Source: an uncultured Desulfobacteraceae bacterium
Lineage (GTDB): Bacteria > Desulfobacterota > Desulfobacteria > Desulfobacterales > UBA5852
Direction: 5' to 3'
DNA: 64,000 nucleotides
NCBI GenBank assembly: GCA_913060875.1
Contig: CAJXSL010000001.1
Coordinates: 950,464 to 1,014,463 of the forward strand
This document shows, one piece after another, positions 4,305 to 27,290 of this stretch. Every line of letters starts with the position of its first letter. Position 1 is the first letter of the stretch. The translations under genes and the position numbers were made by a program. A model generated the notes under the pieces. It did no database searches. It was not told where the DNA came from and saw nothing but the letters and a program-made list of their open reading frames with translations.

Positions 4305-7300
4305 TTATCCTTCCACCGGTTTGGAAGCTGCCGTAATCACTTCCAGCGCGCCAGAGGCCGGCTCAAAGTCCAGTCGGTTCAGACTGTCATCGATGGTTGC
4401 GATCTGGGCGCCAAAACGACTGGGATCCAAAGACGACCGAATCCCCTGCCAGAGGGTTTCCGCTTCCAGGTCGTTTTCGGCCAGCAACCGGGCCAGTTGC
4501 CGAATTTTTTCCGGAAGATCCGGCAGCAGCACGTCCGGGTTTGAGCAGGTGTCCAATGGATCGGCCTCCGATTTCCACCCCTTGACAGCGGTTGCCAGAG
4601 CCTGGATGGATGCATCGATGACAGCGAGTCGTTCTTCCAGCTGAATAGGGTCATGGGCTGCAATTGCGCTTTCCACGCTGGCGGCGGCTTCCGCAATGCG
4701 GGTGGCGGACAGATTGGCGGCCGCACCCTTGAACGTATGGGCCAGCCGGCGGGCAGAATCGCTATCCCCGCTGTCGAGCGCATCACGGATCGTTGTGGCG
4801 GCCATTTCAAACTCACGGATGAAATCGTCTAACAATCCCTTCAGAAAAGAAGGGCTCGACCCTGTTCGGGATCGTAAATCGTCCAGGTCAACACCCGGTA
4901 GATCCGGGATAACCGCTGTTTCTGTCTGGTTCCCGGGCAGACGCGATGGGATGTCGCAGCCATGTGTGGCAAAGGGTTTGTGGGGCGGTACCCACCGGGA
5001 TAGAGCAGGAAAGAGGATATCCACGTCGATGGGTTTGGTGACGTAGTCGTCCATACCGGCTGCCAGGCATTTCTCCCGGTCGCCTTTCATCGCGTGGGCC
5101 GTCATGGCGATGATCGGAACCGGTATAAGACGGGGGGGGACTTCTCCCTTGTCAAACCGGTTCGCTTTTTCCATGGTCCTTATGGCCCGGGTGGCGTCAT
5201 AGCCGTCCATTTCAGGCATCTGGACGTCCATCAGGACAGCATCGTAGGCCCGCTCGCGGATTTTTTCCACCGCTTGTTTGCCGGTTGTCGCTGTGTCCAC
5301 AACCATGTGCGCCCGGGTCAGCAGTTCTTCAGCCAGACGAAGGTTGATGGCGTTGTCTTCCACCAGAAGAATTTCCCGTCCGGCCAGGCTTTGGACATCG
5401 AAACATTGATTGTCCTGCGCGGATTCAGCGGTCAGGAAGGCGTCAATATCTTCCGGCACGAAAAGATGGGCTATGGTATCGAAGAGGCAGGACTGTTTGA
5501 GAGGCTTTCGCAGCCAGCCACTGATGTTCAGTTCTTCCGGCGCGGGCTGAATGGCCTTCTCTTCGTAGCCGGTGATCATCACAATCGGGATATGGGCCGT
5601 TCCATGGCAGGAACGAATTTGACGGACCGTGTCCAGGCCGTTCATACCCGGCAGTTTATAATCCATCAGGATAAAATGATAGGGAGGGCCCTGGTCGCAG
5701 GATTCGATCATTTCAAGAGCCTGTTCGCCCGACCCGGCGACAGACACATCCAGCCCGTAATGCGCCAATATTTCTTTCAGCAATTCGCAAAGGGCCGGGT
5801 TGTCATCTACTACCAGGGCTTTATGGCCCCGGACAAAACTCAACCGCGACGACCGGGATCGGTTGACCTTGGGTATGTCAAAGCGTATCGTGAACGAGAA
5901 CACACTTCCCTGGCCCAGTTGGCTGTCCAGCCACAAATTTCCGTCCATCATCGTGACGAGATGTTTGCTGATGGTTAACCCGAGACCGGTTCCTCCGTAT
6001 CGGCGCGTGGTGGAGTTGTCCGCCTGGACAAAGGAATCGAAGAGCTTGTCCTGCTGGTCCGGCGCAATGCCGATGCCTGTGTCGGCAACGTCGAAACGAA
6101 CCCAGAGCCCCTTTTTATTCTGGTGGCTGACCGTGCCTTTGACGATAACGTCGCCCGCATCGGTAAATTTAATGGCATTGCCGATCAGGTTGGCTAAAAT
6201 TTGTTTGAGCCGCAGTGGATCGCCGGTAAGATAATCGGGGATGCCGGGTGAGAGGGCTGTGATCAATTCAAGCCCTTTTTGCTCGGATAGCTGGGCAAAC
6301 ATGTCGGTCACGTTGTCGATGACATCCTGCAGTTGGAAATCCGTATGCTCGATGTCCAGCTTGCCGGCCTCAATTTTGGAATAATCAAGGATATCGTTGA
6401 TAATACCTAACAGAGAACGGCTGGACATGCAGATGGTGTCCATATATTCCCGCTGTTTGGACGTTAATTGGGTCTCCAATAGTAAATCGGTGTACCCGGT
6501 GATGGCATTCATGGGGGTGCGGATTTCATGGCTCATATTGGCCAGAAAGTCGCTTTTGGCCCGTGCGGCGGTTTCGGCCTGGCGGGCCATTTCCCGGGCG
6601 TGGTCGATGGCCCGTTCAAGCTGTTGGTTGACGTCACGCAACTCATGGTTGGCCGCCTCGATTTCCGATTTGGCCCGGGCCAGTTCATCCTGGGATTTTT
6701 TATAGATGATGATCTGGGAGATCAAACTGGAGAAAATCTCCAGCGGCCGCACAGTTTCACCATTGGGCTTGCGGCCTGATTTGGATGTGTCGACCGAGAT
6801 GATGCCGATCAGATTCCCGTCCGGCCCGTTCATCCTGACGAACAGGTTGTCTTCCGGGTGCCAGGCGTCGTTCGACACTGGTGGGCATCCCTTGCCGAAC
6901 AGGGTGGCCTCCTGGCGCAGCACGTCTTTGCTGTCATGGGGCAGGTAATAGGACAACTGGCCGAATGGAATACTGTGGGCAAAAACGTTGTCGTAATACT
7001 CCGGTTTCATCTCGATGTGTTGAAGTGAGGCGATATAGGCCGGATCAACATTCTGGTAGCTGACGATTTCACGAAATGGCGGGGTCTCTTTGAAATAGGA
7101 GATCATGACCCGTTTATAATCGGAATAATCGACAATCGCCCGGCTGATGCGGTCGAAGATGTTTTTTTCATCCTTCATGGCGATAATGGAGGCCGCTGCA
7201 AGGCTGAACTGCTCTGTCTGTTCGGAAAGCCTTTTAATCTGGGCCTGGCTGTGGCGCAAAGCTTCTTCGGATCGTTTGCGGACGATGGCCAGGGCGACCT

Positions 7301-18106: not shown

Positions 18107-20293
18107 TTACAATCCTTTGGCACTGGGGTTGGCGTCCAGGGTGACCACCGAGGTCAGGGGACAGTTGGCTTCGCGACCGCCGGTGTGGGTCTGGGCGTGA
18201 ATCGCACTGATGGCGCTTTTCATTGAAGGATAAAAATGATCGGCGCCGATGCGGGTGTAGAGGTGGGTGCGTTTGAGCACCCGCATGACCGAGGCGTGGA
18301 CACCGCTGAAGGAAATATCGATGCCCGCGCTGCGGACCCGTTCAACGACCAGGGCCAGGGCTTCCTGACCCGATGCATCCATGTCGTTGATGCCCTCGGC
18401 TCCGATGATGATGTGTTTGAGATCCTTTTTGGTGCGCCGCCGCTGCCGAATCTGGTCCTCGAGATAACTGGCGTTGGCAAAAAAGAGCGGGCCGTCAAAA
18501 CGCACGGCATCGATATAGCGGCACTCTTTAAGTCCGTGGGCCACCGCGTCATGCAGGGCCTGGTCAACGCCCAGGGAGAGGTCCACCACCTTCGGCCGCA
18601 TGCTGCGGTAGAGATAAACCCCCAGGGAGAGGGCCACTCCCAACAGGATGCCCCGGTCCAGGTGCGGGGCGAAGGCCAGGGTGGCGACGAAGGTGACGAT
18701 GGATATGGCCCCGTCAAACCATTGGGCCCGCCAGGCATGGATGAATCCTTCGATGTTGATCAGGCCGCCCACGGCCATCATGATAATGGCGGCCAGCACG
18801 GACTGGGGCAGGTGATAGAGCAGGGGCGTGAAGAAAAGCAGAGTGGCCAGAACGGCCAGGCTGGCGAACAGGCTGGCCAGACCGGTCACAGCGCCCGCCT
18901 GCAGATTGACGGCGGAGCGGGAAAACGAGCCGGCCACGGGATAGCTTTGCCCCATGGCGCCGAGCATGTTGGCCAGCCCCTGCCCGATCAGTTCCTGATT
19001 CGGATCGATCCGCTGGCCGGTTTTAGCGGCCATGGCCTTGGCAATGGAGATGGCCTCCATGAAGCCCAGGATGGCGATAATGACAGTGGCCGGCAGCAGG
19101 GTCAGAACAACACTGCCGCGGATGCGCGGCAGCGTGAAAGAGGGCAGCCCTTCGGGGATGGCGCCGACGACCTTACCGCCGCAGAAAAGGGGTAAGGCTT
19201 CCGTATCCAGGGCGGCGCGCCCTACCTCGATGCGCCAGGTGCTTCCGGCGGCGGTCATTTCCGGCGGACGGCCGCCCTTGCGGAAAAAGCGGGTTTCTCC
19301 TGAGGCGGTCCGGCCACCGTCCATCAGCACCTGGTTGAGGGTCCGACGCAACATGGTGGCCTGGCGGCTTTTTTGAGCATTCTGGAAATCGATAATGTCG
19401 AGGTCCCGCCGGATATGGATGATCTGGAGTGCGGCATCGTTTTGGCGGGCCTGATCAAGTTCGGCGGTCCGCCGGGCGCGTTGGTTCGCCAGACGGTCGA
19501 TTTCCGCCAGGGAGGCATTATACTGGACGATCAGCGTGCGGATGTCGGCGTCATCCAGGGCCTCCATGGGGACGTGGGTTTTATGTTCGAAACCAATGGC
19601 CCAGGACACCAGTGTCGTCATGACCACGGCCGCCAGGACGTTGGGAATTTTCAGGGAAATTTTCTTGAGAACCACCATGACCAGAAAAGCGAATACGCCC
19701 ATGAGCAGGGTGGGCCAATGGGTGAAATGAAACGCTTCGGCAATGATCCGGGCGATGGCCTGGGCATAGTGATCGGTTTGGCCCACAGTGATGCCGAAGA
19801 GTTTGGGCAACTGACCGGTGGCGATGATAATGGCGGCGGCATTCGTAAAACCGTTGATCACCGGGTGCGACAGGAAATTGACCACCAGCCCCAGCCGCAG
19901 GAACCCCAGCAGAAACTGGAAGACGCCCACCATCAGGCCCAGCAATACGGCATAGGCTATGAAGGCCTGGCTGCCGGCTACGGCCAGGGGTTCCAGGGCC
20001 ACGGCCGTCATGAGGGACACCACGGCCACCGGACCGGTAGCCAACTGGCGGCTGGAGCCGAAAAGGGCCGCCACAGCCGGCGGCAGGAAGGCCGCGTAGA
20101 GGCCGTAATAGGACGGCAGATCGGCCAGTTGGGCGTACGCCATGGACTGGGGAATCAGGATCAGGGCCACGGTCAGCCCTGAAAAGAGATCGGCTTTGAG
20201 ATGCCGCCGGTTATAGCCCGGCAGCCATTCCAAAAAGGGGAAAATGTCAGCTGGTTTGGGCCATGCCGCTATGCCGGGTCGTTGCGAGGCCAT
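18107..20293 (-). CDS. SulP-family anion transporter with STAS domain and central insertion
   Basis: An inner-membrane transporter, typically for sulfate, bicarbonate or dicarboxylates. The SulP signature is near residue 50 (ILIPQSMAYAQLADLPSYYG), followed by FGSSRQLATGPVAVVSL and the late motif PVAGSFSRSAVNLQAGA. A cytoplasmic STAS domain lies at the C-terminus (FDGPLFFANASYLED, INDMDASGQEAL). At 728 residues it exceeds typical bacterial members by about 130. The excess is a charged, heptad-like insert near residues 255-385 (DRLANQRARRTAELDQARQN), just before the motif GAIPEGLPSFTLP. The gene is second in the operon after tetR; its GGGGAGGAG ribosome site overlaps the tetR stop. The solute is not certain. 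Confidence 0.9.
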   Translation of the reverse strand: MASQRPGIAAWPKPADIFPFLEWLPGYNRRHLKADLFSGLTVALILIPQSMAYAQLADLPSYYGLYAAFLPPAVAALFGSSRQLATGPVAVVSLMTAVALEPLAVAGSQAFIAYAVLLGLMVGVFQFLLGFLRLGLVVNFLSHPVINGFTNAAAIIIATGQLPKLFGITVGQTDHYAQAIARIIAEAFHFTHWPTLLMGVFAFLVMVVLKKISLKIPNVLAAVVMTTLVSWAIGFEHKTHVPMEALDDADIRTLIVQYNASLAEIDRLANQRARRTAELDQARQNDAALQIIHIRRDLDIIDFQNAQKSRQATMLRRTLNQVLMDGGRTASGETRFFRKGGRPPEMTAAGSTWRIEVGRAALDTEALPLFCGGKVVGAIPEGLPSFTLPRIRGSVVLTLLPATVIIAILGFMEAISIAKAMAAKTGQRIDPNQELIGQGLANMLGAMGQSYPVAGSFSRSAVNLQAGAVTGLASLFASLAVLATLLFFTPLLYHLPQSVLAAIIMMAVGGLINIEGFIHAWRAQWFDGAISIVTFVATLAFAPHLDRGILLGVALSLGVYLYRSMRPKVVDLSLGVDQALHDAVAHGLKECRYIDAVRFDGPLFFANASYLEDQIRQRRRTKKDLKHIIIGAEGINDMDASGQEALALVVERVRSAGIDISFSGVHASVMRVLKRTHLYTRIGADHFYPSMKSAISAIHAQTHTGGREANCPLTSVVTLDANPSAKGL

Positions 20294-20999: not shown

Positions 21000-22238
21000 A
21001 TGGTCGAAGCGGTTCCTGAGAAGGCCAAGCTTTTGGAAAAATTAAAAAAATCTGGATTTGCCGTTCCGGATTTCATTTACGTGCCGGCTCAAAATTTTGA
21101 AAATGGTGACACTGCCGCCCTCGAGGCCTTCCTGGAAAAACACCGGGAGAGCTTCAAGGTCATCGCCCGCAGCGCCCATCCCCATGAGCGGCGTTTCAAG
21201 GGCGGCACCTTCGATTCCCTGGAAACCTACGCCGACGTCGGCGGGATCCGCTACGCCCGCAACAAGATGATCAAGCTGGCCAATACCAGCAAGCAATTGA
21301 ACATTCAACGCCAGCAGAAATTCAACCAGGCGCCGGATCTGGATATGAATGCCATGGGGGTCGTGGTCATGCCCTTCATCGACGGCACCAGCGTCATGGC
21401 CAAGATGATTTGCGGGCAATGGGAATTCGGCTATTGCCGGGACCGGGTGCACCGGGTCCAGAGCGAGCCCTATATCACCCGCACCCCCCACGACCGCCGG
21501 CTCTTGCAGCTTTCCAAGGAGATTCAATCGGTTCTGGGATTTCGATGTGAAATCGAATACATTATCTCCAGCGAAGGGGAGATCCATGTGGTCCAGGCCA
21601 AGGATATCTCCGAGATCGACATTCTGGAGGAAAAGGAGAGCCAGCGATCCATCACCCTAACCGGCGTGCGCCGCATCCGCAAACGCCGGAACTATCGGGA
21701 ACGCCCGCTTTACGTGATGGACAACCGGGAATTTTATATCAGTGTCATCACCCAATGCGAGGACATGCTCGATGCCTGCCCCCGTCCGTCTTCGGGGGAT
21801 GTGGAACCCGTCATCGCGGCCATCAAGGCCTATGAGGCGGAGCTCGAGGCGTTTGCCCTGCGCCACCAGCGATACGCCGTATTGGGGCTCTCCATCCAGG
21901 ACACGGGTGGGCTTTACCAGATTGCCAGCCACTACCTGGACGATTTCCCGGAATGCCAGGCGGAGCTCGCCAAGGTGCTGCACAACAACCTCTATCAGAT
22001 CGACATCTTTATCTCCGAGGCCGATACCCTCATCGCCAAGGACAAGATCCGCATCGGCCTTTGCAGTCATGACGCCTACGGGATCGACACCGTCCGCAAC
22101 CCCCTCTGGAATGTCTACTGGCCGGCGGACCGTCACGAAGAGGTGGTCGCCCAGTTCCAGGAGGTGGGATTCCGGACAGGGGACACCGTGGGCATCGACA
22201 TCAATGTGGATGATCAGCCGGTGGTGTTTCGATTGTAG
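21000..22238 (+). CDS. PEP-synthase/PPDK N-terminal-like ATP-grasp protein
   Basis: The 412-residue protein resembles the pyruvate-phosphate dikinase/PEP-synthase ATP-binding region. LLEKLKKSGFAVPDFIYVPA at the N-terminus matches the entry strand, FKVIARSAHPHERRFKGGTF the substrate/ATP loop, and IEYIISSEGEIHVVQAKDIS the end of the ATP-grasp fold (usually E-x-h-hQ-R). The phosphohistidine swivel and PEP-binding domains are missing. The last 190 residues carry no recognised motif. It may activate a substrate through ATP or be a regulatory derivative; the true substrate is unknown. The start has a good ribosome site (GGAGGCATCCC). It is transcribed divergently from tetR. Confidence 0.75.
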   Translation: MVEAVPEKAKLLEKLKKSGFAVPDFIYVPAQNFENGDTAALEAFLEKHRESFKVIARSAHPHERRFKGGTFDSLETYADVGGIRYARNKMIKLANTSKQLNIQRQQKFNQAPDLDMNAMGVVVMPFIDGTSVMAKMICGQWEFGYCRDRVHRVQSEPYITRTPHDRRLLQLSKEIQSVLGFRCEIEYIISSEGEIHVVQAKDISEIDILEEKESQRSITLTGVRRIRKRRNYRERPLYVMDNREFYISVITQCEDMLDACPRPSSGDVEPVIAAIKAYEAELEAFALRHQRYAVLGLSIQDTGGLYQIASHYLDDFPECQAELAKVLHNNLYQIDIFISEADTLIAKDKIRIGLCSHDAYGIDTVRNPLWNVYWPADRHEEVVAQFQEVGFRTGDTVGIDINVDDQPVVFRL

Positions 22239-22298: not shown

Positions 22299-22964
22299 TC
22301 AACCATGCGGCCAAGCGCAATCCGGGCTTGTTTCGACATCGAGATAACAGGTTCGCCCGCCGTGTTTAATGGTGTGCACATGGGGAAGGGGGGTGCGGTT
22401 GGACCCCAGGCGGATACTGGCGACTCGGTCGGCGCTCGTCGTGGGCTCACGCATGGCGCTGTATTTTCGGCGGTAGTAGGGGGCGGTATCGTCTGTTGGT
22501 TTAATACGGAACCATGGGGCGCCCTGTTCTACGGCGTACTCCAGCGCGACGGCCATCATGAGCTCGTCGAGGTTCCACACACCTCTTGATCCTCCATTGC
22601 GAAATGCTTCCTGCACGAAAAAGCCGTACCGGTGAAGATTTCGCAAATCGTCGAATCGGTCCAGGGCAACCCCTTTTTCGTGTTTCAGCGCGGCCGCAAA
22701 GGGTAGACCGATGAAAGGCGAACCAAAGGCCGAGTCCAGGTGGATCTCCCGCTGCATATCGAAATCGAGAAAGGCCACATGCCGCCAGGCGCGGCTCTTG
22801 AAGACGTCGATCATGCCGGTGCCGCGAAAAGTGATCAACAGGTCGGTGCCGGGCGATTCAAAGTCGGCAAATCCCTTCTGGGCCAGATGCTCGTAATCGA
22901 AACGAAACACCGGTACCAAGGTGGGGTCATCCCATGACGCGTGTCGTATGGCGTCGTTCGTCAT
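22299..22964 (-). CDS. Unrecognised 221-residue protein, GNAT-like hint
   Basis: Start ATG 22964 is chosen for its ribosome site (AGAGGCGGACC); the frame stays open 54 codons further, but that part has no coding character. I recognise no family with confidence. The segment AVEQGAPWFRIKPTDDTAPYY followed by RRKYSAM is reminiscent of the acetyl-CoA-binding end of GNAT acetyltransferases, where A..G...I......A..YYR..GF is common; this is a hint only. The gene is convergent with the ATP-grasp gene (60 bp gap) and is separated from the rhodanese gene by a strong hairpin. Confidence 0.6.
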   Translation of the reverse strand: MTNDAIRHASWDDPTLVPVFRFDYEHLAQKGFADFESPGTDLLITFRGTGMIDVFKSRAWRHVAFLDFDMQREIHLDSAFGSPFIGLPFAAALKHEKGVALDRFDDLRNLHRYGFFVQEAFRNGGSRGVWNLDELMMAVALEYAVEQGAPWFRIKPTDDTAPYYRRKYSAMREPTTSADRVASIRLGSNRTPLPHVHTIKHGGRTCYLDVETSPDCAWPHG

Positions 22965-23092
22965 GGTCCGCCTCTGTCCATGTGTTGCCGGTTTGATAAG
23001 TCTGCAGGCGCAGCGCTGCGCCCCAGATGCCGTCCAATGAACATCGCGAGTGCGTGAAATATCCGGGTTAAATGGTTTGCCTTCGAACGGGG

Positions 23093-23127
23093 AATGATCG
23101 CCTCCCGTCTCATGGGAGGCGATCATT
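23093..23127. terminator. Strong bidirectional hairpin
   Basis: A perfect 14-bp stem (AATGATCGCCTCCC and its complement) with a 7-nt loop, just past the rhodanese stop. A T-rich tract (CTATTTTTC) follows on the plus strand. It probably ends the APC-rhodanese transcript and blocks entry into the 22.3 kb gene. Confidence 0.7.
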
Positions 23128-23129
23128 AT

Positions 23130-23540
23130 CTATTTTTCATCCACCGGATATTTGGCCCGGAACCATTCCCGCCAACCGCCCTTGAGGGCGTATACATTTT
23201 CGTAGCCATTGTCTATCATTTTCTGTGCCAGACTGGCACTGGTGTATTCGTTCGGTCAGGCGCAGTAGAGGACGATCTTCTTGGATTTGGAGTAGGTATT
23301 GGCCCACTGATCGTAGGCCTCGGGCTTGGCGTAGGCGGCGCTTTGGATTTTGAACTCGGAGGATTTCCAGTCTTTGCCGCGCCGGACATCCAAAACGACG
23401 AGATCGGGGTCGCCCAGCATGGCTTTAAGCTCGTCGGCGGTCATCAGGGGGACGTTCCCGGCCTGGGATATCCCCAGACCCGTCAGCATCAACGCCACTG
23501 CCAGCAGAAAGACAAATGGCATTTTGCGTGTTTTCATCAT
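23130..23540 (-). CDS. Periplasmic rhodanese-like protein with in-frame UGA (probable selenocysteine)
   Basis: The frame reads 94 codons from ATG 23540, meets TGA at 23256-23258, then continues 41 codons to a TAG at 23130. The sequence across the TGA is IVLYCA-U-PNEYTSASLA, and downstream NGYENVYALKGGWREW is the classic rhodanese C-terminus. Related rhodaneses carry Cys at this position (CACPNE), so the TGA replaces a Cys. A signal peptide (FLLAVALMLTGLGISQA) places it in the periplasm. The start has AAAGGAGG. A hairpin just after the TGA fits a bacterial SECIS. It follows the APC permease gene by 13 bp in the same operon. Without Sec insertion the product would stop at residue 94. Confidence 0.85.
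23225..23239 (-). promoter_or_regulatory. Candidate SECIS hairpin for the rhodanese UGA
   Basis: Starting 16 nt after the UGA, the mRNA forms GUGCC-AGUCU-GGCAC, a perfect 5-bp stem with a loop close to the AGGUCU apical loop of E. coli fdhF. The loop G-U lies at positions 26-27 counted from the U of UGA, against 23-24 in fdhF. It is inside the coding region, as bacterial SECIS elements are. Confidence 0.65.
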
Positions 23541-23553
23541 GGGTAGCCTCCTT

Positions 23554-24867
23554 TCAATGATTCGATAAACCTGCTTTGGTGTTCGTATCAATTCCTCTTG
23601 CCAAATACTGGCCGGCACCGGCGAAGCCGATGGCCAGGATCAGAAAAATAGAAAGGGTTTTTAAAAGAGCGGAAGGATCTTCATCGGTGGCGACAAGTGT
23701 GCCCGCAATGATGACGAATAACGCAGCGACCAAAACTGTCCGAAGACCTTCCCGGATCGATGGATGCGACAGGTTCCAGGGGCGATCAGGCATCGATTTA
23801 AGCTTACCGGCGAGCAGGATGATGGCATAGAAAACAAGCCACAGCAGGAGACCGGCCCGGATGCTGGCATCCAGCCAGTCAGTGCCGGCAAATCCCGTGG
23901 CCATGAGCAGACCGACGATCGCAGCGAGACTGACCAGAGCGAATGTTGGACGGGAGGCCGAATGCCCGAAAACGGCCGGCAACAGATGGTTGCGCGCCAT
24001 GGCTGCCAGCATGCGCGCAACGGTTTGGAAAAGATAATTCACGGCAGCGCAGGCACCGGCAATGGCCACGATCCCAATGATAATCCGGCCGGTGGGTCCC
24101 GCGATCGCTTTGGCGGCCAGGATGTGGGGTATGCTGGTGTCCGCCAGGCGGGACGGAGCAACATGCAGCAAGCTTGCCGTGTTCCAGAGCAGAATAAGAA
24201 GCCCCCCCATAACCAGACCGGCTTTGATGACCATCGCCAACTGGTCGGGATGGAAACGGTGGGCGCTGTAGCGCAGCAGGTCGTACCCAACCAAACCGAT
24301 GGCGGCCAGCCCTGCCCCCCGGGTGCCGGCACTCATGGATAAGGCTGTCGATGTTGCGGCTGCCGTCTGGTCTCCACTGAAAAGACCGACAACGGCCAGA
24401 CCGACCAGACCGGCGCTGGCGGTCGCCGTAAACAGGAACTGGCCGGCCGCCGCCGCTCGGGGGCCGGCCAGGTTCAGGGCCAGGATGATCGATAGGAGAA
24501 GGGCGGCAAATCCGAAATTGGGGAACCAGTAGAGAAAGACTTCGTTGAAGACAAAGCCCGCCGTGACCAGCAGGGCGGTCGCCAGGCACACCGCCAGGGA
24601 CGGGCGCGCCATCAACAACAGCGCCGAGGCGCTAAGCGGGCCGACAGTCTCGATCAGGAGCTTGATTTCACTTGGTGCGGCAGGGTCGGTCATCCCGTCG
24701 CCCCGGGCCGCCGTGACGTTTGTCCAATGAAGAATGATCGCCGCGGCCAGCAGCAGGATAAACCCCGGGCCGCACAATCCGGAGAGGTTGCCTTGCAGCA
24801 GCAAGGCTTCCGGTGAAATAAACAGGCCTGTCATCCAGGCCAGGGCTATGAGGTATCGGACCTTCAT
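23554..24867 (-). CDS. APC-superfamily permease
   Basis: A 437-residue, strongly hydrophobic protein with about 11-12 predicted membrane segments and the amino-acid/polyamine/organocation pattern. It starts with MKVRYLIALAWMTGLFISPEA, shows a Gly-rich internal helix (GFVFNEVFLYWFPNFGFAALLL), and has a conserved middle segment (TSIPHILAAKAIAGPTGRI followed by IGIVAIAGACAAVNYLFQTVARMLAAMARN-type helices). It lacks an N-terminal tail, so it is short for the family. It precedes the selenocysteine rhodanese by 13 bp on the same strand, suggesting a joint role with a sulfur or selenium compound; this is context only. The ribosome site is weak. Confidence 0.8.
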   Translation of the reverse strand: MKVRYLIALAWMTGLFISPEALLLQGNLSGLCGPGFILLLAAAIILHWTNVTAARGDGMTDPAAPSEIKLLIETVGPLSASALLLMARPSLAVCLATALLVTAGFVFNEVFLYWFPNFGFAALLLSIILALNLAGPRAAAAGQFLFTATASAGLVGLAVVGLFSGDQTAAATSTALSMSAGTRGAGLAAIGLVGYDLLRYSAHRFHPDQLAMVIKAGLVMGGLLILLWNTASLLHVAPSRLADTSIPHILAAKAIAGPTGRIIIGIVAIAGACAAVNYLFQTVARMLAAMARNHLLPAVFGHSASRPTFALVSLAAIVGLLMATGFAGTDWLDASIRAGLLLWLVFYAIILLAGKLKSMPDRPWNLSHPSIREGLRTVLVAALFVIIAGTLVATDEDPSALLKTLSIFLILAIGFAGAGQYLARGIDTNTKAGLSNH

Positions 24868-25130: not shown

Positions 25131-25634
25131 CTAATGTAGGGTTTCACCCGGTGTCGGGGCGGCATTGCTGCCCAGCAGAAACAGCGCACTCATGGTATCG
25201 TGAACACTCGGGTAGATGCTGTGGTCTTCTCGAAGATCGGTACCGCTGACGCACAGGCTGGCAAGATTATTTTCCTGAATCCAGGCGGCAATACGAAACG
25301 CCGCCTTATCGGGCGTTGCAGCAGCAAAATCAACATGCAGGCAAGGCTGGCGTTGCGCCTGGGCCTCGCGTTTGATCGATTCCAGACGAGGCGGCAATTC
25401 CCCCCCGGAAAACAAAAGGATGCCTTCGGCCCGGGCTATGTTGGCCTTAAGGAGCAGCATGGGATGGACAAACGGCCGCTCATCCAGCCTATAGCGGCCG
25501 GTTGGGCGGTCTCCCGGAACCAAGGCGCCACGGCTGGTAAAGCCACCATAAGGGATGTTGAACCGAATGGCCGCGTCCAGGGCGGCAGATTCCGCACCCA
25601 AGTTGCCGGAAGAAATGATCCGAATATTGCTCAT
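25131..25634 (-). CDS. Putative molybdenum-carrier-like protein (SLOG superfamily)
   Basis: A 167-residue protein resembling the putative molybdenum carrier family (YpsA/SLOG Rossmann-like fold), whose members bind molybdenum cofactor or a nucleotide. Matching features are SAALDAAIRFNIPYGGF near the start (family AALDxAIxxGIPxGG), RYRLDERP, GILLFSGGEL and the C-terminal CVSGTDLREDHSIYP. The N-terminal Gly-rich signature normally GGQTGVD reads SSGNLGAE here, so ligand binding may differ. Start at ATG 25634 (MSNIRII) is likely; an ATG at 25652 is possible. An R2 element immediately follows the stop and may serve as terminator. Confidence 0.7.
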   Translation of the reverse strand: MSNIRIISSGNLGAESAALDAAIRFNIPYGGFTSRGALVPGDRPTGRYRLDERPFVHPMLLLKANIARAEGILLFSGGELPPRLESIKREAQAQRQPCLHVDFAAATPDKAAFRIAAWIQENNLASLCVSGTDLREDHSIYPSVHDTMSALFLLGSNAAPTPGETLH

Positions 25635-25673
25635 GTTGTTTTTCCCGAGCATTCGTTGTCTGCGCCACCTCAT

Positions 25674-26804: not shown

Positions 26805-27290
26805 TCAAAAGAAGCGAACGATGGCGAAAAGACCGACCATGGACATGGCCACCGCCAGTTTGGCTGCCACGCCGAGCGCCAGCCCGACGGTGGTGCCGAT
26901 GCCGGCTTTGCCGGCGGCCATCAGGTTTCGCTGAACCGATAATTCCCCTAATACGGCTCCGATGAAAGGCCCCAGGAGAATTCCGGGAATACCGAAAAAC
27001 AAGCCGACCACCGCCCCAATGCTGGCGCCGACAATGGCACGGGTCGACGCCCCGAATTTTTTGGCCCCCAGGGCTCCGGCAATGAAATCCACCGCATAAA
27101 TCGCCAACGTCATGAGGCCCAGAACCGCCAGTGTACCCATGCCGATGTAGGCGAAATCTTCCGCCCATGCTGCCAGCAGCAATCCCAGGAAAAGCACCAC
27201 ACCGCCCGGAAACGCCGGGAGCACCAGGCCGATGATGCCGGCCAGCACAAGGATTACGGAGATTATCAGAAGGACGATCGGTGTCGTCAT
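26805..27290 (-). CDS. DUF456 membrane protein
   Basis: A 161-residue protein with four to five membrane helices and the DUF456 pattern: a first helix ending in GLVLPAFPGGVVLFLGLLLA, then the Gly-rich centre FGASTRAIVGASIGAVVGLF and the strongly conserved FGIPGILLGPFIGAVLGE. Members are small inner-membrane proteins of unknown role. It stands alone, convergent with the binding-protein gene (9-bp gap). Ribosome site GGGTGA lies just before the ATG. Confidence 0.88.
   Translation of the reverse strand: MTTPIVLLIISVILVLAGIIGLVLPAFPGGVVLFLGLLLAAWAEDFAYIGMGTLAVLGLMTLAIYAVDFIAGALGAKKFGASTRAIVGASIGAVVGLFFGIPGILLGPFIGAVLGELSVQRNLMAAGKAGIGTTVGLALGVAAKLAVAMSMVGLFAIVRFF

Follow-up and report, generated by a model that had tools for sequence, protein, structure and literature searches.

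The window, a stretch of 64,000 nucleotides from the genome of an uncultured Desulfobacteraceae bacterium, carries on its minus strand a rhodanese gene with an in-frame TGA and, directly upstream of it, a predicted permease gene (Table 1). The rhodanese frame runs from an ATG at position 23540 to a TAG ending at 23130 and its sole interruption is the TGA at 23258-23256. This codon falls between LYCA and PNEYTSA, giving the loop motif LYCA-U-PNEYTSA, and is followed by 41 sense codons before the TAG. With the TGA translated as a residue, the PF00581 rhodanese domain covers residues 34-128 of a single 136-codon frame at 52.1 bits (cut-off 22.2). Both points of the original prediction concerning the frame, a TGA within a rhodanese domain and a clean reading frame downstream of it, are confirmed. 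Under the standard code the frame closes at the TGA, so that genes of this kind are easily overlooked or cut short.

Table 1. Features of the rhodanese-permease locus, in window positions, and the selD genes of the same genome, in contig positions.
Feature	Position	Strand	Basis
Predicted rhodanese selenoprotein gene, 136 residues and TAG	23130..23540	-	PF00581, NF041203, structure model
Putative Sec95 codon, in-frame TGA	23256..23258	-	Same codon is TGA in 80 of 80 kept loci
Cys93 codon TGC, catalytic rhodanese Cys position	23262..23264	-	Column invariant in 11 of 11 aligned domains
Putative signal-like hydrophobic N-terminus, about residues 1-28	23457..23540	-	By eye; cleavage site guessed
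Probable rhodanese ribosome-binding site, AGGAGG	23547..23552	-	By eye
SECIS-like hairpin GUGCCA-GUC-UGGCAC, loop at 23233-23231	23225..23239	-	Fold, published limits, relatives
Predicted APC-fold permease gene, 437 residues, TGA end 13 bases before the rhodanese ATG	23554..24867	-	Predicted fold
Two selD genes, both containing an in-frame TGA	G000:C7:188817-189743; G000:C15:54858-55781

The in-frame TGA is conserved among relatives of the window gene. A scan of a genome collection confirmed 146 relatives, and in all of the best 80 of these, which were kept as loci and come from independent assemblies, the codon at the Sec95 position is TGA; rarer Cys forms could sit among the 66 relatives outside the kept set. 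A class sample of 291 genomes, including the window's own, gave 50 matches in 44 genomes, 48 of them above the cut-off. One or two in-frame TGAs are present in 47 of the 50, the TGA position having been checked only for retrieved genes. Within 58 nearer genomes, again including the window's own, 20 matches were found in 16 genomes, and 17 of these matches have a TGA. The three class-sample genes without an in-frame TGA include one with Thr at the Sec95 position (L049) and a Cys form with the loop YCACPNE (L155; G195:C151:220-570, in the region L155 1-570), which is the type of Cys homologue that had been predicted for the UGA position. L155 keeps the SECIS-like hairpin and groups with Sec sequences, albeit where the tree is weakly resolved, which suggests that it may derive from a Sec ancestor by a change to Cys. 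In Desulfacinum hydrothermale DSM 13146 (L101, 6001-6384), one of the 80 kept loci, the rhodanese frame has an extra TAA downstream of the Sec codon and is possibly a decayed copy. Two TGA-bearing genes of the family adjoin each other in one genome (G013:C104:82577-83387; L044 and L048).

An ordinary rhodanese gene hit by a stop mutation or a sequencing error would also be closed at the TGA under the standard code, and the frame is known here from sequence alone. The recurrence of TGA at one codon throughout the kept loci led us to reject this explanation, in agreement with the original prediction, and the hairpin conserved across relatives, the sel genes of the genome and the existence of a curated selenoprotein family, all described below, likewise speak against it. 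We consider it extremely improbable. General reassignment of UGA was rejected as well, since UGA still terminates the permease gene 13 bases upstream.

The hairpin that had been predicted behind the UGA is present at 23239-23225, fits the bacterial SECIS model and is conserved among relatives. It has a stem of 6 pairs and a loop of 3 bases (GUC) with G in first place, and 22 bases lie between the UGA and the loop. A figure legend of a 2026 review (PMC13188914) sets the limits for bacterial SECIS elements at a loop of 3-9 bases, a stem of 4-16 pairs, a G as the first or second base of the loop, 16-37 bases from UGA to loop and an energy of at most -7.5 kcal/mol; the window hairpin lies within all of them. 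Its energy of -8.7 kcal/mol corresponds to a z of -1.91 against dinucleotide shuffles of the 48-base stretch, with 7 of 200 shuffles as stable or more so, which makes the hairpin moderately unusual when the window is taken alone. All six pairs formed in 0.96% of 5000 synonymous shuffles of the window sequence. Comparison was then extended to 109 genes, namely the window gene, the 80 kept loci and 28 genes from the class search, which contain 99 distinct 63-base regions. Of these regions, 98 start with TGA and the remaining one is the Cys form L155. The five outer stem pairs are all formed in 94 of the 98 distinct sequences, compared with 5.1 on average and at most 10 in 200 synonymous-codon shuffles, which take no account of kinship between the sequences. 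Paired changes are seen at stem positions 20-32 (T-A in 81, C-G in 15) and 23-29 (C-G in 92, A-T in 5). Overall folding energy gives weak support for a SECIS, with a mean z of -1.08 against synonymous shuffles and values below 0 in 86% of sequences. The case for a SECIS is nevertheless strong because it is built on comparison across relatives and not on the fold of the window sequence alone.

The genome encodes the components of selenocysteine synthesis and insertion. Profile searches identified one selA (616 bits) and one selB (356 bits) above cut-off, two selD genes above cut-off (374 and 368 bits) and one tRNA-Sec above the gathering score (75.6 versus 47 bits). Each selD gene has one in-frame TGA of its own, in the contexts GAG-U-ASK and TCG-U-AAK. 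The original prediction was to be given up if the genome held no sel genes; selA, selB, selD and tRNA-Sec are all found. SelB- and SECIS-dependent readthrough is supported at the sequence level: the hairpin just 3' of the UGA would recruit SelB with Sec-tRNA, the UGA would be decoded as Sec95 and translation would continue to the TAG. We conclude that the UGA at 23258-23256 is almost certainly recoded as selenocysteine and that the Sec rhodanese gene has strong comparative support.

Profile scores place the window gene in an already catalogued selenoprotein family. It reaches 178.7 bits with the NCBIfam equivalog model NF041203 (rhodanese_LYCAU, 'rhodanese-related (seleno)protein'; cut-off 115), and no other gene of the genome exceeds that value. 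Table 1 of the 2026 review equates NF041203 with rhodanese-like form 3, with a CxU motif and one Sec, and the portions of the review covered rank this form among the high-confidence predicted families and cite Zhang and Gladyshev (2005, Bioinformatics; cited in PMC13188914) for it. Among the parts of other sources covered, one lists COG0607 form 2, which has the CxU motif and shares its example accession, TKB26178.1, with form 3 (PMC9312934), and one mentions that a marine deltaproteobacterium has a rhodanese-like selenoprotein (PMC8318568). The selenoprotein call is therefore correct and concerns a kind already known; the literature covered, in part, states no function for the NF041203 family. 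The hydrophobic N-terminal segment, read by eye as signal-like, would direct the protein out of the cytoplasm, and the rhodanese is probably exported and periplasmic. That the window gene encodes a selenoprotein of this known family and that the protein is exported is, as one joint claim that leaves the sulfur chemistry aside, very probable.

Sec95 is located two residues past the catalytic Cys93 and not at the catalytic Cys itself. We aligned 11 rhodanese domains, including L155 and nine others of the window's own genome, with Sec printed as Cys. In all 11 the Cys93 column shows Cys, which under this convention may stand for Sec, and because Cys93 falls in this invariant catalytic column, the UGA codon corresponds to the residue two places on. 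One of the nine own-genome domains (L002) has a TGA in the catalytic column. This second TGA-bearing rhodanese of the genome (G000:C7:220454-220711; L002, L052) reads YUAVGGRS, with the TGA at the catalytic position, and sits downstream of a PrxU-like peroxiredoxin gene. A third (G000:C1:1257375-1257746; L053, L064) reads YCMGYRUVFS, its TGA being five residues past the catalytic Cys. An AlphaFold2 model of the window protein (pLDDT 89.6, 52 sequences), in which helix 9-20 is of low confidence, predicts a rhodanese fold that superimposes on 3tp9 with a Z of 17.3 and an rmsd of 1.7 over 103 aligned residues.

The catalytic Cys codon is also TGA in ten relatives, giving a putative double-Sec UxU motif. 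Nine of the 109 rows of the tree (105 columns; a sequence set different from the 109 genes of the hairpin comparison) are of this form, namely L117, L134, L163, L170, L176, L177, L178, L180 and L181, and the tenth relative, L179, fell outside the tree by the motif filter. The tree, which leaves 43 of 106 inner branches open and has long branches for L180 and L181, requires at least seven changes among CxU, UxU and CxC. One of these changes is well placed, as L126 (CxU) and L176 (UxU) form a sister pair whose support is starred. The first TGA of the UxU genes is six bases ahead of the second and about 28 bases from the loop, inside the 16-37 limit. The expected hairpin is part of the minimum-energy fold in eight of the ten UxU relatives; L170 and L180 have a better-scoring alternative fold. 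The UxU form is absent from the portions of PMC13188914 covered, in which the table gives the family one Sec. Should the UxU form be real, relatives whose catalytic Cys has become Sec, set beside sisters in which it has not, would constitute a natural experiment on what selenium contributes to a rhodanese.

The gene directly upstream of the rhodanese is, according to its structure model (pLDDT 77.4, 8 sequences), of the APC-superfamily fold. The window permease has no Pfam match at 0.001 and no PDB sequence match at E values up to 1, and its best NCBIfam score is 29.6 bits against a cut-off of 284. Among six permease homologues scanned, L083 alone passes PF13520 (28.8 versus 27 bits). Six of the 80 loci reach less than 1000 bases upstream, leaving 74 assessable. 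A permease lies directly upstream on the same strand in 38 of the 74 and none does in 36, and a permease match elsewhere was found in none of the loci. In 35 of the 38 the permease frame stays open for 395 residues or more, and L084 and L142 are cut by the locus start. The cultured Desulfacinum infernum DSM 9756 (L079) is among the relatives that carry the permease. In L065, the closest relative, the permease is a short remnant (5661-6083, 42.7 bits) beside an open Sec rhodanese frame, and permeases with internal stops likewise stand beside open Sec rhodanese frames at G125:C1:438926-439969 and G127:C1:2954797-2955909. A permease profile identified 21 genes in the class sample at an E of 1e-40 or better, of which 18 are directly upstream of a family rhodanese, a share that partly reflects the set-up because the profile was built only from rhodanese-linked permeases and the threshold was this strict. 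The three unlinked genes are the weakest scorers (142-148 bits, versus 183-574 for the linked ones). The permease link is therefore recurrent and has been lost in places; the original prediction had called an APC permease partner less expected, and it is in fact a recurrent neighbour.

The other neighbours of the rhodanese are not widely recurrent. When six window genes were searched in the 80 loci by tblastn, the permease was found in 36, the genes at 22299-23126, 26805-27290, 21000-22238 and 18107-20293 were found in L065 only and cpYpsA (25131-25673) was found in none. Downstream neighbour clusters extend to at most 6 of 61 loci. The portions of PMC13188914 covered contain no permease link, and neither this link nor a double-Sec rhodanese appears in the titles and abstract beginnings of the literature searched, which is a weak basis for novelty. 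Whether rhodanese and permease co-operate as a functional pair is, from gene order and recurrence, an even call. If the link holds, it would offer a concrete lead on the role of the NF041203 family.

A sulfur-transfer cycle can be proposed for the exported protein. As other rhodaneses do, Cys93 would accept sulfane sulfur, the donor being thiosulfate, polysulfide or a persulfide, and Sec95 in the same loop would attack or receive this sulfur, with sulfide released or the sulfur passed on. A Cys93-Sec95 selenenylsulfide would result, which a periplasmic reductant would reopen. The permease, probably co-transcribed judging from the gene order, may carry either the product itself or some sulfur or selenium compound related to it over the inner membrane. 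We regard transfer of sulfane sulfur by Cys93 with Sec95 as its selenenylsulfide partner as evenly poised between right and wrong. The selenoprotein could instead have a purely redox role, the Cys93/Sec95 thiol-selenol pair reducing periplasmic disulfides or oxidants with no part in sulfur transfer. According to the portions of PMC13188914 covered, the majority of predicted selenoproteins look like thiol oxidoreductases or contain redox motifs, and redox functions are likely for them; ten relatives, moreover, would have Sec at both positions. The retention of the catalytic rhodanese Cys and of the whole rhodanese fold points away from such a role. The present results fit either chemistry, and both could share one cycle. 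A purely redox role is a serious possibility that we hold to be somewhat doubtful. An improbable third reading makes the Cys-x-Sec loop a binding site for a metal or metalloid ion, in resistance or as a chaperone. Sec may serve as a metal ligand in several selenoproteins linked to transport (PMC13188914, portions covered) and the chromate-resistance rhodanese model ChrE matches the window protein at 40.5 bits, but this is far under its cut-off of 120 and is expected between rhodaneses, and no metal-resistance gene recurs among the neighbour clusters that were annotated, which are a part of all clusters.

Returning to sulfur transfer and the permease, we tentatively propose that sulfate reducers and related bacteria have a selenium-dependent module of two genes, the LYCAU rhodanese and a dedicated permease of the APC fold, which activates and imports a sulfur or selenium compound, and that in several lineages the UxU form arose when the catalytic Cys was replaced by Sec, both UGAs being served by a single SECIS hairpin. 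Taken jointly, these claims are possible but fall short of probable.

The predicted structures allow comparison with characterized proteins. The single-domain rhodanese GlpE (1gmx) shares the fold predicted for the window rhodanese (Z 15.4, rmsd 2.3, 105 aligned), and the periplasmic polysulfide-sulfur transferase from Wolinella succinogenes (1qxn) matches the model with a Foldseek E of 3.1e-5. The position of the catalytic Cys is common to both of these and the window rhodanese, which differs from them in the predicted Sec two residues further on and has an identity of 15-17% in the Foldseek rows. The permease model superimposes on LAT1 (8kdg; Z 32.5, rmsd 4.2, 398 aligned) and AdiC (5j4n; Z 31.4, rmsd 4.6, 389 aligned), whereas identity in the 8kdg and 5j4n rows is 12-15%. 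Among the selenoproteins listed in the portions of PMC13188914 covered, rhodanese forms 1, 2 and 4 (UxxS, UxxG) and TsoB (UxxxxU) likewise have Sec in the active loop, but their listed motifs are other than the CxU of the window protein, which scores only 34.8 bits with the TsoB model (cut-off 805). With NF041203, in contrast, the match is full-length and the CxU motif is the same, and the window protein itself shows no difference from this family.
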